Assembly: GCA_937873665.1 (NCBI GenBank)
Contig: CALMYW010000214.1
Location: 1 to 8,031 of the forward strand
Direction of reading: 5' to 3'
DNA from: an uncultured Sphingorhabdus sp.
Lineage (GTDB): Bacteria > Pseudomonadota > Alphaproteobacteria > Sphingomonadales > Sphingomonadaceae
Length of the DNA stretch: 8,031 bases
In this document: piece after piece, positions 1,900 to 7,606 of the stretch
Numbering within the stretch: the first letter of the stretch is position 1
How the letters are laid out: every line of letters begins with the position of its first letter
Position numbers and translations under genes: made by a program
The notes under the pieces: model-generated
The model's database searches: none
The model's input: only the letters and a program-made list of their open reading frames with translations
What the model was told of the DNA's origin: nothing

Positions 1900-4200
1900 T
1901 CAGAACTTCGCTTCCACCGTTACGCCATAGGTTCTCGACTCGGCGAGATGGAAATAGTCGTACCCGAGAGCGGAGATATCGAGGCCGGACGTCGCATAGG
2001 TGCGATTGAATAGGTTTTTGCCCCAGATTTGCGCTTTATATTTGCCGTCGCCAAAGCTGTACGAGGCTTGGGCGTTGACGAGGGCATAGCCTGGCTGGGC
2101 AATCCGCTGCGTGTTGAACAGGTCGAAATATTGCTTCGTATTGTAGCTTGCGTTGATACCGAGTGAGAGCTCGTCCGCTCCTTTCTTCAGGATCGTGAGG
2201 TCAGCAGCGGCGTTCAGGCTCCAGGTTGGGGCATTGGGCAGCCGGTTGCCAGCAAGGTCGGCGCCGGAGATGTTCCCGCGCCTGATCTCGGTGTGAAGGT
2301 AGCCGGCCCCGCCGCGCAGCGTCAGTACATCAAGCGGGCGCACGACCAGCTCGAGCTCCGCGCCGTAGATCTGCGACTTGGGTATGTTGACCAACGGTTG
2401 AAGCACACCGATCAGGCTGAGCGCTTGCTGATTCTTGTAGTTGTACAGGAAAACGGCCCCGTTGAGCGTCAGCCGCCGGTCCAGAAACTGGGTCTTAGCC
2501 CCGATTTCGAAGGCGTCCACGGTTTCCGGTTTGGCGATCGTCAACTCGTCGGGCGCGAAGAAGGCTTGAGAATTGAACGAGCTTCCGCGATAGCCGCGGC
2601 TGTAGCTCGCATAGAGGAGATGGTCGGGACTGAGCTTGAGATCGACGCCGACCTTGCCCGTCACGCTACCCTTGCTGAACCGCAGTGCCGTCGTCGCGTC
2701 GAAATTTCCGGGGTCGCCCGGAATCGTGTTAGCGACAGGCACGCCGTCGATCCCAATTGCCTGCGCTTTAAAGTCGCTGAGACGGCCCCGGTCCCATGTG
2801 TAGCGAAGGCCGCCGCGCAGCGTAACCAACTCGCCAAGCTCATACGTGAGGTCGGCATAGAGAGCCTTGCTGCTCTTCTTCTGCGCGAACTGGTTACGAT
2901 AGACGCACGCCGTGGAAAAATCGACGGCGCAGTCGTCGGCGTCGATGTTTCCGTCGCCATCGACATCGATATCGGTGAAGAATCGATATTCGGTGCTCGT
3001 GTCGAGTTTCTCGACATGGTAATAAGCGCCGAGAATGAAGTTCAGACCCGCACTAAAACTGCTTGCGATCCGCAGGTCCTGGGCGAACTGATGTCCTTTG
3101 GCCCGGATATCATTGTCGTTGACCTGGCGCGGGCTGCCCTCCGTGTCTTCGGGATTGTGGAGCTTGCCACGATCGTAGGAGGTGATCGATGTCAGGCGGA
3201 TATCATTGGCCAGATCCCAATTGGCGGTCAGAGCTGCACTGTTCGTGCGATGACGACGGCGCCGCGCATAGCTTGTTTCGATTTCGCGGCGTGTCAGGCC
3301 GGTCCTAAAATAGCTTTCCATGCCGAAAAGCTCGTAGACGCCGGCACCGATGCCGTCGGCGAGCGGTCGACCATAAATGCCATAGTTGAACGGATTGTCG
3401 AGGCTGGTGGACAGCCGCAGAACAAGCTCAAGATCGGGGGTCGGCTTCGTCCTGATCGTCCCGCGGATGGCATAGTTCCGAACCTGATTGAGGTCGGGCT
3501 CGCCAGGCACGCGGTTCTTGAACCAGCCGTCGCGCCGCGCGAATGTGAAGGCCAGTCGGGCAGCCGTCGTATCGCCCAGCGCGACGTTGAGCGCTCCATT
3601 GGCATCCATTCGGTTGTAGTTTCCATAGCCTAGCGACAGATAACCCTCATTCTCGAACTGCGGCAGGCGGCTGATGAAATTGACCGCGCCGCCCGTCGTG
3701 TTCTTTCCGTACAGCGTTCCCTGGGGGCCACGCAGGACTTCCAGCCGCTCGAGATCGTAGAGACCGATCGGAATGAACGGGAAGCTGCCTTTGTAGACCT
3801 CGTCGAAATAGGTCGCGACCGGGCTTTGCTGATTGACGCTGAAATCGGACATCGACACGCCGCGAAGCGAGAAAATGGGTATATTCTCGCCGAGAGTGCT
3901 GGTTGCCTGCAGATTGGGAACATTCGCCGAAAGTTCCGCCGCCGACGAGACATGATTGCTTGCCAGTGTGTCGCCGCCAATCGCCGTGATCGAGGCTGGC
4001 ACGGATTGAAGTCGCTGGCTTCTGTGCAGCGCCGTGACGACGATTTCATTCGCGTCGTTGCTCGCGGTGGGCTGATCGCTCTCGTCCTGCGCGGTCGCCG
4101 GTTCGTCAGCGGGCTGTGCCCCCGGCTGAGCGCTAGCCGATGAAACGACCAGCGCGCAGGCCGCGGCGGAGCCCATCCATATTAAACGGCTTAAAAACAT
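1900..4200 (-). CDS. TonB-dependent outer-membrane receptor
   Basis: 766 residues, normal for the family. A Sec signal peptide (residues 1-24, ending SSASA) is followed by a linker rich in acidic residues, Ala and Gln and the TonB-box-like EIVVTA (52-57). The plug domain (about 60-180) carries the signature around LRGPQGTLYGKNTTGGAVN (156-174). The rest is a 22-strand-type beta-barrel ending in aromatic F766, as usual for outer-membrane proteins. A periplasm-facing TonB link would drive active uptake of a substrate too large or too scarce for porins; the neighbours suggest an amine. An extracellular-loop candidate at 412-432 holds a canonical Ca-binding loop (D412, D414, D416, G417, I419, D420, D423) and two cysteines. 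The ribosome site GGGAGAG is 4 bases before ATG. It is the last gene of the cytochrome c-flavoprotein-receptor operon, 43 bases after the flavoprotein. Confidence 0.95.
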   Translation of the reverse strand: MFLSRLIWMGSAAACALVVSSASAQPGAQPADEPATAQDESDQPTASNDANEIVVTALHRSQRLQSVPASITAIGGDTLASNHVSSAAELSANVPNLQATSTLGENIPIFSLRGVSMSDFSVNQQSPVATYFDEVYKGSFPFIPIGLYDLERLEVLRGPQGTLYGKNTTGGAVNFISRLPQFENEGYLSLGYGNYNRMDANGALNVALGDTTAARLAFTFARRDGWFKNRVPGEPDLNQVRNYAIRGTIRTKPTPDLELVLRLSTSLDNPFNYGIYGRPLADGIGAGVYELFGMESYFRTGLTRREIETSYARRRRHRTNSAALTANWDLANDIRLTSITSYDRGKLHNPEDTEGSPRQVNDNDIRAKGHQFAQDLRIASSFSAGLNFILGAYYHVEKLDTSTEYRFFTDIDVDGDGNIDADDCAVDFSTACVYRNQFAQKKSSKALYADLTYELGELVTLRGGLRYTWDRGRLSDFKAQAIGIDGVPVANTIPGDPGNFDATTALRFSKGSVTGKVGVDLKLSPDHLLYASYSRGYRGSSFNSQAFFAPDELTIAKPETVDAFEIGAKTQFLDRRLTLNGAVFLYNYKNQQALSLIGVLQPLVNIPKSQIYGAELELVVRPLDVLTLRGGAGYLHTEIRRGNISGADLAGNRLPNAPTWSLNAAADLTILKKGADELSLGINASYNTKQYFDLFNTQRIAQPGYALVNAQASYSFGDGKYKAQIWGKNLFNRTYATSGLDISALGYDYFHLAESRTYGVTVEAKF

Positions 4201-4243
4201 AAAACTCTCCCATATATATAATATTTATAAATTTATTAGTCAG
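4201..4243 (-). promoter_or_regulatory. Very AT-rich leader and ribosome site of the receptor gene
   Basis: 35 of 43 bases are A or T, in sharp contrast with the coding DNA on either side. It ends in the strong ribosome site GGGAGAG (4205-4211), 4 bases before the receptor ATG. The AT-rich stretch should leave the site unstructured and favour independent, strong translation of the receptor. A promoter here is unlikely, because the best -10 candidate (4215-4220) would start transcription inside the ribosome site. Confidence 0.5.
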
Positions 4244-5707
4244 TTACTTTGTGTCCCCGAGCATTTTTGAGGCGTGGCGGGCGGCGATGATGCCCTGCTC
4301 GATGGCGCCATCGATGAAGCCGCGCCAGCCGTTGGCCCAGTCGGCGTTCGCGAAGAGCAGCCGGCCGGCCGGCGCCTGAAGCTCGGCGATCGCCGCCGAC
4401 AGCTGGCCGGGGCGCGACACGCCCCAAGTCCCCTTGGAATAGGGATCGACGTTCCATTCATAACCATAAGCGGCCACGACCTTGGCGTCGGGGACGAAGG
4501 CGCGCACCGCCGCCTGCACTGCATTGGTGTCGTTCATGTCGAGCGCATCTGCGCTCGGGCCGAATGCGATCAAATGGGTCTTGCCATCCTCGGCGCCTTC
4601 CCACAGCAAGAAGTTGATCGGCGCGTCGTCGCCGGGCCCCCAGCCCGAGAAATTTGCATATTCGCCTTCAAGCAGGATATGGGTTTTGGTGCCCTGTCCG
4701 GCATGGCGCTGCCGCGACGTCGCGAGCTTAACGGGGCTGAGCGCGGGCTCGAACGCGATGTCGGCCAGGATATTGAGCGGCGCGGCGCAGATGACGGCGT
4801 CTGCTTTGAGGATTTCCCCGCCCTCGGTAACCACCTCGACCGACGTCGAGAACTGGCGGATCGCGGCGACGGGTGTCGATAGCCGCACGTCGGCCGCCGC
4901 ATCGGCGGCAATGGCGTCAAGCAGGGTCTTGGTGCCGCCCGCGATGCGAAAGCGCCCCACCGCGTCATTCGTTACAGTCAGATTATACCCGGTCAGTGCG
5001 TACCAGCGCATCATGTCGATCCAGGATACTTCGCTTGCGGGTGCGTTGCCCCATGCAAGGATCATGGAATCGACGATTGGCCGCACATCGTCTGGCATCG
5101 GCGTCGCGTCGATTTTTTGCCGCAGCGAATAGGTGTCGGCCTTCATCCACGTGGCATCGGCAAGCGGCTCCGCAGGGCGCGGCATGATGGAATATCCGCC
5201 TTCGAAGAGATCAGAGACGGATTTCTCGAGCCGCGGCCATTGCTCGGCCGCAGTCGTTTCGTGGCGTCTACCCTGCTTGTCGAGATAGATGATCCGGTCG
5301 GCAACTGCGCCAGGCGTTTCGTCGAGCGCCACGCCGTAACGGCTGATCTCGGCCCAGACATGCGGCTGGAGCCAGTGGACCCAAGTCCCGCCGAAATCAA
5401 CCTGGTGGCCGGCAAAGTCGGAGGTGAAGGTGCGCCCGCCCAGCCGATTGCGCGCTTCGAGAAGCGTCACGCGAACGCCGCATTCGCGCAGTTCGCGCGC
5501 GGCGGTAACGCCGCAAAATCCGCCACCCACCACGATCACATGACGCTGCGATCCAGGAACAGGGGGCGCGGCGCGCGCCGATGCACTCGCCGCACCGCCG
5601 AGCAGCATCGATGCGGCGGCAAGGCCCAAGACTCCCCGTCGCGTCGGCGGCTCGGAGACCTTCTCGTGCCCCGGCCCCGGCAATCCACTCTTGTCGTGCG
5701 TATCCAT
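4244..5707 (-). CDS. Periplasmic flavin amine dehydrogenase/oxidase, NicA2-like
   Basis: 487 residues, FAD-dependent amine oxidase family: removes hydride from a C-N bond, giving an imine that hydrolyses. A Tat signal is visible: twin Arg at 23-24 (TRRGVLG), a hydrophobic run to about 40, and a cleavage site near ASARA (42-46). The dinucleotide fold follows: VVGGGFCG (59-66), the ribose-binding Glu84, and RLGGRTFTS (88-96). FGGTWVHWLQPHVWAE (105-120) closely resembles the matching stretch of Pseudomonas nicotine oxidoreductase NicA2 as I remember it. K341 fits the conserved flavin-facing Lys. The C-terminal FAD segment NADWANGWRGFIDGAIEQG (454-472) keeps an Asn (N459) where many amine oxidases have an aromatic cage residue, with W428 as the likely partner. 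Its start is 7 bases after the cytochrome c stop with only a weak ribosome site, implying coupled translation. Substrate unknown: nicotine-like, polyamine or another amine. Confidence 0.9.
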   Translation of the reverse strand: MDTHDKSGLPGPGHEKVSEPPTRRGVLGLAAASMLLGGAASASARAAPPVPGSQRHVIVVGGGFCGVTAARELRECGVRVTLLEARNRLGGRTFTSDFAGHQVDFGGTWVHWLQPHVWAEISRYGVALDETPGAVADRIIYLDKQGRRHETTAAEQWPRLEKSVSDLFEGGYSIMPRPAEPLADATWMKADTYSLRQKIDATPMPDDVRPIVDSMILAWGNAPASEVSWIDMMRWYALTGYNLTVTNDAVGRFRIAGGTKTLLDAIAADAAADVRLSTPVAAIRQFSTSVEVVTEGGEILKADAVICAAPLNILADIAFEPALSPVKLATSRQRHAGQGTKTHILLEGEYANFSGWGPGDDAPINFLLWEGAEDGKTHLIAFGPSADALDMNDTNAVQAAVRAFVPDAKVVAAYGYEWNVDPYSKGTWGVSRPGQLSAAIAELQAPAGRLLFANADWANGWRGFIDGAIEQGIIAARHASKMLGDTK

Positions 5708-5714
5708 CGTCAGA

Positions 5715-6170
5715 TTACTTTCTTGCTGGGCCGGAAGATGATGCGAGGAAAGCGATGATCGCCGCCCGGTCTTCCGCCTTCTTCAGGCCGGAGAAGGCCA
5801 TTCTCGTGCCGGGCGCAAATTTCTGAGGCGCCGCCAGAAACGCGTCGAGGCGTTCGCGCGTCCATTTGCCGCCGAGCTTCCGCATGGCGGGGGAATAGTT
5901 GAAGCCGGCCGCTATGCCCGGTGCCCGCCCGACCACGCCCCGAAGTGTGGGGCCGGTCATGTTGCGATTGCTATCGACCGCGTGGCACGCTGCGCAGCGG
6001 GCATACAGGACCTTCGCGTCGGGCCGATTGGCGGGCGTAGCGCGGGCAGCATTCTCGTCGACTAGAGCGATGCAGCCCAGCAGCAGTGCCGCTATTGGCG
6101 CAATCGCCAGCAATCGATTTTCCCGGTCGCACCGGGGATTCGCATGTCTGAATCCGAAGATGGTCACCAT
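5715..6170 (-). CDS. Class I cytochrome c, probable electron acceptor of the flavoprotein
   Basis: 151 residues. A basic N-terminus and a hydrophobic segment (about 19-35) form the export signal. The heme-binding CAACH motif is at 59-63, followed by GPTLRGVVGR (73-82), and the distal axial Met is M124 in the PGTRMAF context (120-126), so the layout is that of mitochondrial-type or c2/c550 cytochromes. The signal ends LLLGC (C33), a loose lipobox, so the protein could be membrane-anchored rather than soluble. The ATG at 6170 lies only 3 bases from GGGGAG (6174-6179); the in-frame GTG at 6167 has better spacing (6 bases) and may be the true start. It is the first gene of the operon. In Pseudomonas the NicA2 flavoprotein passes electrons to a cytochrome c (CycN) encoded beside it; the same gene pairing here suggests the same role. 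Confidence 0.92.
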   Translation of the reverse strand: MVTIFGFRHANPRCDRENRLLAIAPIAALLLGCIALVDENAARATPANRPDAKVLYARCAACHAVDSNRNMTGPTLRGVVGRAPGIAAGFNYSPAMRKLGGKWTRERLDAFLAAPQKFAPGTRMAFSGLKKAEDRAAIIAFLASSSGPARK

Positions 6171-6203: not shown

Positions 6204-6230
6204 ATTATACCGTCAACTGACAGTTTGCAA
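6204..6230 (-). promoter_or_regulatory. Promoter of the cytochrome c-flavoprotein-receptor operon
   Basis: On the minus strand a TTGCAA -35 box (6225-6230) and a perfect TATAAT -10 box (6204-6209) are separated by 15 bases. The spacer is short, but it is filled exactly by a dyad symmetric site (6210-6223). A transcript would start near 6197, about 27 bases before the cytochrome c start, a sensible leader length. Confidence 0.6.
6210..6223. promoter_or_regulatory. Operator 1, CCGTCA-AC-TGACAG
   Basis: An imperfect palindrome (one mismatch; flanking A/T at 6209 and 6224 extends it to 16 bases). It lies precisely between the -35 and -10 boxes of the minus-strand operon, the classic position for repression by a TetR-family dimer. 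It shares 12 of 14 bases with operator 2 in the same orientation. Confidence 0.6.
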
Positions 6231-6301: not shown

Positions 6302-6315
6302 CCGTCATTTGACGG
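6302..6315. promoter_or_regulatory. Operator 2, CCGTCA-TT-TGACGG
   Basis: A perfect 6-bp dyad with a 2-base centre, 38 bases before the TetR gene ATG and 92 bases from operator 1. It lies just before AT-rich sequence (6317-6326) that could serve as the regulator's -10 region, so it fits autoregulation of the regulator-cupin operon. Confidence 0.6.
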
Positions 6316-6352: not shown

Positions 6353-7051
6353 ATGAAGGTCGAAACCCTCGAATCTCGCACCAGCGACCAGCTGCCGGGC
6401 GAAATGGCCGTACAATGGTTGCTGGCAGACTTGCGCGCGCGACTGCCCTCGAGCCCGCGGAGAAAACCCGGCTCCAATTATGACAAGATATTGGTTGCAG
6501 CGCGCGATACGCTGAAAGACGTCGGATATGCGAGCTTTGCCCTCAGGGAAGTCGCGTCGCGGGCGCAGGTTCATTTGAAAACGCTGCAATATCATTTCAA
6601 GACAAAGGGAAGTCTGATCGAGGAGACGCTGAATTATTCACTCACTCGCCATTATTATGACTCCTATATTAGCCTGTTCAACTCGCTGCAGACGTCCAGT
6701 CATGAGGAACTGATCGAGGAAACGGTTCGATTCCTGGTGTTCGATGGAGCGCAAGGCGGCACATCCAGCTTCTTCTTCGACCTTTGGGCGATGGCGATGC
6801 GCGACGAAGACGCCAAGCTGGCGGTCGATCATTTTTACAGCCGCTACCGGCGCCTGATGGCGTGGCTGATATCCAATGCGAACCCCAAGATCGGCGGCCA
6901 AGCGGTGGAATTGCGGGCCGCGCTGATTATAGCCCAGATCGAGGGGCTGATGCTTTTCCTCAATCAGGACATGCCGAAACATGCCGAGCTTTCGAACCTC
7001 GCCGACGAGGCCGTTCGCGAGATCATGCGATGCATCCGGAGTCCGAAATGA
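6353..7051 (+). CDS. TetR-family transcriptional regulator
   Basis: 232 residues from the ATG at 6353, with AAGG 9 bases upstream; a TTG at 6335 is in frame but less likely. An N-terminal arm of about 40 residues, longer than in most TetR proteins, precedes the DNA-binding domain (about 43-95). The helix-turn-helix is VASRAQVHLKTLQYHFKTKGSLIEETL, with the typical Y-H-F-x-x-K-x-x-L pattern. The C-terminal part is all-helical, variable, and would bind the inducer and dimerise. It is divergent from the amine-oxidation operon across a 182-base region carrying two matching dyads, so it is the likely repressor of that operon and of itself. The inducer is probably the amine substrate or its product (inference). 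Confidence 0.92.
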   Translation: MKVETLESRTSDQLPGEMAVQWLLADLRARLPSSPRRKPGSNYDKILVAARDTLKDVGYASFALREVASRAQVHLKTLQYHFKTKGSLIEETLNYSLTRHYYDSYISLFNSLQTSSHEELIEETVRFLVFDGAQGGTSSFFFDLWAMAMRDEDAKLAVDHFYSRYRRLMAWLISNANPKIGGQAVELRAALIIAQIEGLMLFLNQDMPKHAELSNLADEAVREIMRCIRSPK

Positions 7052-7090: not shown

Positions 7091-7606
7091 ATGAAGCAGT
7101 ACTTCAGATCATACCCATTACCGTGGCGTTCCTTCTACAAGGTACCGCTTGGAATGGCCGCCATCGTCTCCTTGGCCTGGCAGGGCGCGGGGGCCGCGGA
7201 GCCTGGAAAGGTCCTTCACCCCGTGGCTCTGAGCAAAGACGTTCTCGCCGGGAAGGGCCTAATCGATTTCGATCCATGGCCCAAAGCCATGCAGATCAAA
7301 CCGATCAAGTCGCACCGGTCGATCAGCTGGTTTGTGGGTGAAACGCTGACATCGATCATTTATGAGGCCGACGATGGCCTGCTGACTTTCACCGATTTGC
7401 CCTATGAAGAACATGTCCGGATTTTGCATGGGCGCGCGATCTTGACGTCGGTTGACGGACACAGACAGATTTTCGATCCGGGCGACGATTTCATCGTGCC
7501 TAAGGGATGGAGCGGGACCTGGCAATTGAGCGGTCAGTATCGCGAAATCGCGACATTCGAGACGCGTTCTCTCGATGCCGCCATGCAGCGATGGTTCGGC
7601 AAATAG
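7091..7606 (+). CDS. Exported cupin-domain protein (Cupin_3-like)
   Basis: 171 residues. A Sec-type signal is visible: basic start, hydrophobic VPLGMAAIVSLAW (18-30), then QGAGAA with cleavage near residue 35-36. One cupin domain follows (about 75-160): EEHVRILHGRAILTS (106-120), GHRQIFDPGDDFIVPKGWSGTW (123-144), resembling the Cupin_3/DUF861 family that includes (S)-ureidoglycine aminohydrolase and EutQ-like proteins. E107 and H108 are possible metal ligands, but the full cupin metal set is not obvious, so it may bind rather than catalyse. The ribosome site GGGAG (7079-7083) is 7 bases before ATG. It lies 39 bases after the TetR gene and is probably co-transcribed with it. Its export places it in the same compartment as the flavoprotein and cytochrome, suggesting a role on the imine or aldehyde product, or as a small-molecule binder. 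Confidence 0.88.
   Translation: MKQYFRSYPLPWRSFYKVPLGMAAIVSLAWQGAGAAEPGKVLHPVALSKDVLAGKGLIDFDPWPKAMQIKPIKSHRSISWFVGETLTSIIYEADDGLLTFTDLPYEEHVRILHGRAILTSVDGHRQIFDPGDDFIVPKGWSGTWQLSGQYREIATFETRSLDAAMQRWFGK

Follow-up and report, generated by a model that had tools for sequence, protein, structure and literature searches.

Why a sphingomonad should keep a flavin-dependent amine oxidoreductase, a small cytochrome c and an outer-membrane receptor side by side is the question raised by the window, a stretch of 8,031 bp (G000:C16:59-8089) from an uncultured Sphingorhabdus sp. that was analysed at its full length, 4 of its 8,031 bases differing from the assembly sequence. The window holds three consecutive open frames on the minus strand, at exactly 6170-5715, 5707-4244 and 4200-1900, which are predicted to encode, respectively, a class I monoheme cytochrome c of 151 amino acids (PF00034), the presumed electron acceptor, an FAD amine oxidoreductase (FAO) of 487 amino acids (PF01593) and a TonB-dependent receptor (TBDR) of 766 amino acids (PF07715 and PF00593). 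The Pfam matches (TonB plug and barrel; Amino_oxidase, 184 bits; Cytochrom_C, 40 bits) all exceed the curated cut-offs. Because the gaps are only 7 bp between cytochrome and FAO and 43 bp between FAO and TBDR, the three genes are likely to form a single transcription unit, as a preliminary description of this DNA had proposed when it placed a cytochrome c immediately upstream of the flavoprotein; its guess of a probable sphingomonad also held, the nearest relatives with known context being Sphingomonadales records. The operon is, in our judgement, probably an envelope module for the use of an external amine, which combines import, periplasmic oxidation and delivery of electrons to the paired cytochrome.

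The cytochrome has a hydrophobic N-terminus, which by eye suggests Sec-type export, and its only CxxCH motif, CAACH, lies at 5982-5996 (minus strand). The FAO carries a twin-arginine translocation (Tat)-type signal, PTRRGVLG, at residues 21-28 (motif only), with the pair Arg23-Arg24 encoded at 5636-5641 (minus strand). The receptor has plug, barrel and a TonB-box-like IVVT (residue 53), as is expected of a TBDR.

The question of where the flavoprotein sends its electrons was approached through its relatives. FAOs with a Tat signal and an adjacent cytochrome c gene are widespread and many are dehydrogenases (Akram 2025, PMC12224317); their discoverers add in the Discussion of that paper that sequence alone predicts the use of oxygen or cytochrome poorly. 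FAOs were sorted here by neighbourhood into 17 cytochrome-linked (NicA2 and Pnao by literature; both rows lack N-termini) and 24 unlinked rows, 13 of the latter from Actinomycetota. Unlinked means that the stretch examined holds no cytochrome-like frame, with two particulars: the Root710 contig ends 1.1 kb past its FAO, and in YR583, counted as unlinked, two cytochrome c genes of another operon lie about 9 kb from the FAO. A scan of 26 representatives with 2,604 residue-by-column tests ranked Asp at NicA2 position 86 first; this residue was present in 0 of 11 linked and 14 of 15 unlinked representatives (Fisher p 1.6e-6), the sole exception being a mis-extracted row from HZN7. Over all rows, position 86 was acidic in 0/17 linked vs 24/24 unlinked FAOs, and position 415, a weaker marker, was aromatic in 17/17 vs 6/24. 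When kinship was allowed for, only four independent pairs on starred branches remained, all agreeing, which gives p = 0.125 at best. The window FAO has Asn (86), Phe (93), Ser (95) and Tyr (415) at the docking site, like Pnao and NicA2, and thus bears out the earlier expectation that it would not fall with ordinary oxygen-using oxidases: these residues match the cytochrome-linked FAOs and not the unlinked ones. At matching positions, Ser91 and Tyr422 of Pnao belong to the docking site for CycN, while the oxidase LHNO has Glu and His there (PMC9396064). The docking-site marker extends this published pairwise remark; it is suggested by the present analysis and stands outside the published definition of FAO dehydrogenases, and a term search found no mention of docking residues in PMC12224317 or PMC12272882.

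Several single enzymes are informative in this respect. The Root710 FAO (L082:16602-17999), which is 61% identical to the window enzyme and belongs to the same six-row starred set, has Asp86 and His415, with no cytochrome c seen up to the contig end; the two enzymes are therefore a candidate for a natural oxidant-switch pair. The FAO of Sphingopyxis YR583 (47% identical) also has Asp86 and His415, and was counted as oxygen-reactive, with 2.7e3 M-1 s-1 (PMC12224317). The FAO on the HZN7 nicotine plasmid pShin-05, checked separately and outside the later linked and unlinked counts, carries Asp and His; it is probably NctB, by an inferred gene link. Two FAOs with a cytochrome c gene about 3 kb away (L080 and L081), likewise outside the count, fit the marker with Asn86 and Tyr415, and one row with an internal stop (L057) gave no usable residues. 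Asn86 and Tyr415 were also observed in the FAO of Erythrobacter EhN03 (P0024). Another Erythrobacter FAO is slow with oxygen and has no adjacent cytochrome c (Akram 2025, PMC12224317), and a distant cytochrome may therefore serve it.

Which amine is oxidised was considered by comparison with the closest characterised enzymes. The FAO is 39.5% identical to Pnao over 428 amino acids and 32.9% to NicA2 over 414, and its best PDB matches by sequence were 7e7h and 7u6l, ahead of the NicA2 chains. We take 7u6l to be Pnao and 5ttj to be NicA2. The entry 7c4a, in the same match list, is named NicA2 in PMC12224317. The label "NicA2-like" given in the preliminary description is therefore too broad, the enzyme being closer to Pnao than to NicA2; a direct NicA2 orthologue was rejected on this lower identity and on differing pocket residues. 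The residue roles were taken from PMC9396064, and 10 of 11 NicA2 residues, together with the Pnao residues from that source, were found at the expected places in our alignment, NicA2 "Trp434" being Gln. The window FAO keeps the catalytic lysine (Lys341), the Tyr416-Trp418 pair and Trp428, and shares with both enzymes the lysine, the pair and a non-acidic position 86. At the second cage position it has Phe464, which agrees with Pnao and not with NicA2 (Asn462). The pocket residues Met215, Trp219 and Phe366 are unlike those of either enzyme: for the NicA2 nicotine-pocket residues Asn462 and Trp364 the window FAO has Phe464 and Phe366, and for Ser372, Trp220 and Asn224 of Pnao it has Phe366, Met215 and Trp219. 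Because these positions differ, nicotine and pseudooxynicotine are both improbable as substrates. The term amine oxidase is absent from the main text of the paper on the tomatine TomTYG strains, which gave no substrate clue, and Sphingomonas sp. DS-9, a relative discussed below, is unmentioned in the literature searched, which left most subscription papers outside. As a separate observation, four cytochrome-linked sphingomonad FAOs (L053, L054, L055 and L056) carry Thr at the position of the flavin-N5 lysine (NicA2 Lys340).

Genomic context analysis revealed that the order cytochrome c-FAO-TBDR is kept in three lineages: the window, plasmid pDS2 of Sphingomonas DS-9, and G010/G017, which represent one genus (the cytochromes of the last two lineages were located by tblastn scan). 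The expectation of a conserved gene order in relatives was thus borne out in these lineages. On one strand, pDS2 carries a cupin gene, a cytochrome c (51%), an FAO (58-62%), a TBDR (58%) and an aldehyde dehydrogenase (ALDH), and a 1.4-kb Mutator-type insertion sequence flanks this operon on both sides, its two copies being identical and in opposite orientation. In G010/G017 the cytochrome c and FAO (59-62%) are followed by a TBDR of a different receptor family. In TomTYG72 and TomTYG74 the TBDR is divergent and the cytochrome c lies downstream. Fourteen sphingomonad FAO loci had at least 6 kb on one side (Root710, YR583, SupBloom, G286, G248, G1042, pSH1, G000, G1103, DS-9, G010, G017, TomTYG72 and TomTYG74); an adjacent cytochrome c was found in 10 of them, a TBDR within 3 kb in 9 and the exact order in 5, these loci not being independent, as G000/G1103, G010/G017 and TomTYG72/74 are near copies. 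A cytochrome c also adjoins the FAO in G410 (two places) and G470, where the flanks are too short to judge a TBDR.

The role of the receptor is best approached through its own relatives, which lead to a second, unrelated type of amine enzyme, the tryptophan tryptophylquinone (TTQ) amine dehydrogenases. The receptors closest to that of the window among 147 sampled genomes of the order were those of G003 (51%) and G145 (48-49%), which sit (loci L083 and L084) in operons of the order MauB-MauE-MauD-MauA-cyt c-cyt c-TBDR-ALDH with, as in the window, a divergent TetR gene; MauE and MauD were assigned from place and appearance. The L083 heavy chain had an aromatic amine dehydrogenase as its best PDB match, while the light chain matched one methylamine dehydrogenase chain slightly better (160.7 vs 158.7 bits). 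In the receptor tree, a single starred clade of 9 rows contains the window, DS-9, G003, G145 and PP1Y. Another receptor family comprises 11 TTQ rows and 5 FAO rows, which group apart from each other; the Root710 receptor row, which was mis-extracted, was left out of the tree reading.

The link between TTQ clusters and receptors recurred in the genomes sampled from the order. PF02975 was present in 13/81 Sphingomonadales genomes and 0/14 controls, and 12 of the 13 clusters, all except that of G060, had a same-strand TBDR no more than 0.73 kb away from the closest of the matched cluster genes (by tblastn match ends, with TetR and ALDH counted). Two of these twelve (G010 and G017) are near copies. 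The chance of at least 12 in 13 was 3e-10 to 2e-8 under a rough model with 60-80 TBDRs per 3.2-3.5 Mb; Sphingobium SYK-6 has 74 putative TBDR genes (PMC6874591). In seven non-sphingomonad TTQ clusters, selected from 31 plasmid records, no TBDR was seen at 6 kb or less from the light chain, and one of these clusters gave a weak match at 6.6 kb.

Further ties between the two operon types were found in the ALDH genes and on pDS2. The ALDHs of DS-9 (FAO operon) and L084 (TTQ operon) are 75% identical over 467 amino acids, which suggests the same aldehyde; their NCBIfam matches lie below cut-off, led by aminobutyraldehyde and phenylacetaldehyde dehydrogenases. On pDS2 the ALDH gene is directly followed, on its own strand, by the initial quarter of a TTQ heavy-chain gene (L066:16690-17055; 45% over 125 amino acids, E 9e-24 by tblastn, with no Pfam match for the short piece), which stops where the repeated element starts (17049). 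In YR583 (G330), a TTQ operon of MauB, MauA, two cytochromes c, TBDR (65% to L084) and ALDH (64%), whose heavy chain exceeds the Pfam cut-off, starts at a distance of 6.6 kb from the FAO gene, and the interval holds a TetR gene and the TBDR that belongs to the FAO. MauA and MauB gave no match in 12 other stretches (L048, L078, L049, L050, L067, L125, L082, L013, L052, L053, L079 and L124), and the window system itself lacks TTQ subunits, as neither PF02975 in G000 nor MauA/MauB on the window contig was detected. By gene comparison, two unrelated amine dehydrogenases, flavin and TTQ, appear to share one gene frame, which points to an amine as the receptor's cargo, and the idea of uptake gains support from TTQ operons with related receptors. 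We lean, by a modest degree, towards a broader reading in which a single frame of amine-import TBDR, cytochrome c, TetR and ALDH houses either enzyme, its importers so far undescribed, and in which residue 86 predicts the oxidant; pDS2, with its cut-off TTQ gene behind a flavin operon, may be the enzyme swap itself. In a separate cluster, on Novosphingobium aromaticivorans pNL2 (L121), TBDR, cytochrome c and TTQ genes immediately precede genes of the beta-ketoadipate and catechol pathways.

Compared with known systems, the window resembles Pnao, NicA2 and CycN of Pseudomonas putida S16 in having a Tat-type FAO beside a small cytochrome c, and differs in its identity (39% to Pnao, 33% to NicA2), its pocket residues and the TBDR in the operon. 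It carries, in form, both genetic features of the FAO cytochrome c dehydrogenases of clades 2 and 3 (PMC12224317); the tree of that study does not include the window FAO, and the terms TonB and transporter are absent from the study's main text. The Sphingomonadales TTQ operons (L083, L084, PP1Y and YR583) share the cytochrome c, a window-family TBDR (by the tree in the first three and by identity to L084 in YR583) and an ALDH like that of DS-9, but where the window has the FAO they have an unrelated TTQ enzyme of two subunits. The nicotine ndp cluster of Sphingomonas melonis TY, unlike the window, encodes a full nicotine pathway. The legend of Fig. 2 in a 2020 review lists a TonB-dependent receptor, a cytochrome c and 6-hydroxynicotine oxidase among nicotine-cluster genes (PMC7688666), the receptor being undiscussed in section 5 of that review, and the words TonB and cytochrome are absent from the main text of the original ndp paper (PMC5343071). 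A sphingomonad precedent for import of aromatics by a TBDR is DdvT of SYK-6, which is devoted to a catabolic cluster, is under the control of a repressor and imports a lignin-derived biphenyl, a cargo that is not an amine (PMC6874591); a survey of sphingomonad TBDRs names amines once in its available text, with sulfonated aromatic amines as cargo (PMC7142613). The suggestion that a version with its own receptor could be new therefore holds in part. The FAO-cytochrome pairing is already known, since FAO/cytochrome c dehydrogenases have been described (Akram 2025) and TBDR and cytochrome c are named among the genes of published nicotine clusters, while a literature search that lacked most subscription papers yielded no published link of the receptor to two unrelated amine dehydrogenases. 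Separately, in Stutzerimonas stutzeri (L014:5990-9395 and L016), a NicA2-like and a Pnao-like FAO flank a cytochrome c gene, and an ALDH gene comes after this group.

Taken as an envelope module, the operon would work as follows. The amine, which is probably aromatic, for instance an aralkyl amine, would cross the outer membrane through the TBDR, and the Tat-exported FAO would oxidise it in the periplasm to an imine or aldehyde with freed nitrogen. The reduced flavin would then, a step that is well supported, give single electrons, perhaps via Tyr416 and Trp418, to the paired cytochrome c, which would pass them on to a terminal oxidase, rather than the flavin reacting with oxygen. Expression may be controlled by a TetR repressor that binds the pair of operator-like sites in the region separating the divergent genes.

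Different roles for the receptor were weighed. TBDRs usually carry cargo too large for porins, and the receptor might accordingly import a larger conjugate (an amide, a sulfate or an oligomer) that is cut in the periplasm, with the released amine then oxidised. An amidase gene does adjoin the receptor of the pNL2 TTQ cluster, and Cupriavidus HN-2 and Novosphingobium EMRT-2 have arylsulfatase genes in the vicinity of FAO or TTQ clusters, but no hydrolase was found among the genes identified in the window, DS-9 and L083/L084 operons, and we regard conjugate import as unlikely. The receptor might also supply iron or haem, for example for the cytochrome, its placement being due to chance or co-regulation. 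Its best NCBIfam model is TonB-siderophor, its PDB matches are mostly siderophore or metallophore receptors, and four of its relatives have no amine genes nearby; the TonB-siderophor score (169 bits), however, lies below the 223.5 cut-off, and both the same-strand TBDR in 12 of the 13 TTQ clusters and the same place in three FAO lineages speak against such a role, which we consider improbable. On the side of the enzyme, an ordinary oxygen-using periplasmic oxidase, with the cytochrome belonging elsewhere, would be in line with the measured oxygen rate of the YR583 relative (PMC12224317), which has no adjacent cytochrome c, and with Root710, as far as its contig reaches. Both relatives nevertheless carry Asp86 and His415 where the window has Asn and Tyr, and the cytochrome gene, 7 bp upstream in the window, is kept in DS-9 and G010/G017, which leaves very little probability for this explanation.

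Some results weigh against the envelope module with a dedicated amine receptor. Four of the nine receptor-clade rows (L085, L089, L090 and L091; from G059, MM-1 pISP0, pNL2 and ES2-1) have no FAO or TTQ gene in the stretch examined, and the MM-1 pISP0 receptor falls between the window and DS-9 receptors; a receptor family used only with amine enzymes was rejected on this count. The receptor in the same position in G010/G017 is only 28% identical to that of the window. Among the fourteen FAO loci, 4 lack an adjacent cytochrome c and 5 lack a TBDR within 3 kb, and the 19 kb contig of the window has no ALDH gene, unlike DS-9. Small amines might also enter via porins.

Upstream of the operon, on the plus strand, lie a gene for a TetR/BetI-type repressor (6353-7051, with ATG at 6353 and the open frame from TTG 6335; PF00440 and PF13977) and one for a Cupin_3 protein with a signal-like N-terminus (7091-7606; PF05899). 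Cupin-like matches also occur at the FAO loci L049, L050, L051 and L066, and TetR relatives adjoin both FAO and TTQ clusters. Between the divergent units are two 14-bp TetR-operator-like inverted repeats 92 bp apart, CCGTCAACTGACAG at 6210-6223 and CCGTCATTTGACGG, a perfect dyad, at 6302-6315; with a pattern chosen after the sites had been seen and at most 2 mismatches, the window gave 6 strand-matches vs 1.2 expected, 4 of the 6 being these two sites. Near the operon, overlapping frames on the plus strand (350-1070) encode a Phd/YefM-type antitoxin and a PemK/MazF-type toxin.

The operon is probably plasmid-borne. Beyond it, the window contig (L048:8918-18963) encodes a TrwB-type coupling protein, a TrwC relaxase, a Tn3 transposase and a resolvase. 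Of 19 plasmid records with an FAO match, 9 were analysed. A match of 10,642 bp with 3 mismatches connects the window contig with G1103:C200, from an assembly of another genus, for which recent transfer or mis-binning is possible. Within the window's genus, 3/195 genomes, its own included, had a match at E 1e-60, the other two being 32-33% identical; the counts were 6/396 for the order, 6/397 for the family, 2/385 for the class and 3/398 for the phylum, in overlapping samples that each contain the window's own genome. One scan of viral contigs found no relative.

If this reading of the operon is true, amines would gain an energised outer-membrane route tied to respiration, and a cargo would be suggested for a set of sphingomonad TBDRs without assigned function. 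It would also provide a simple residue marker for telling oxygen-using from cytochrome-using flavin amine enzymes.

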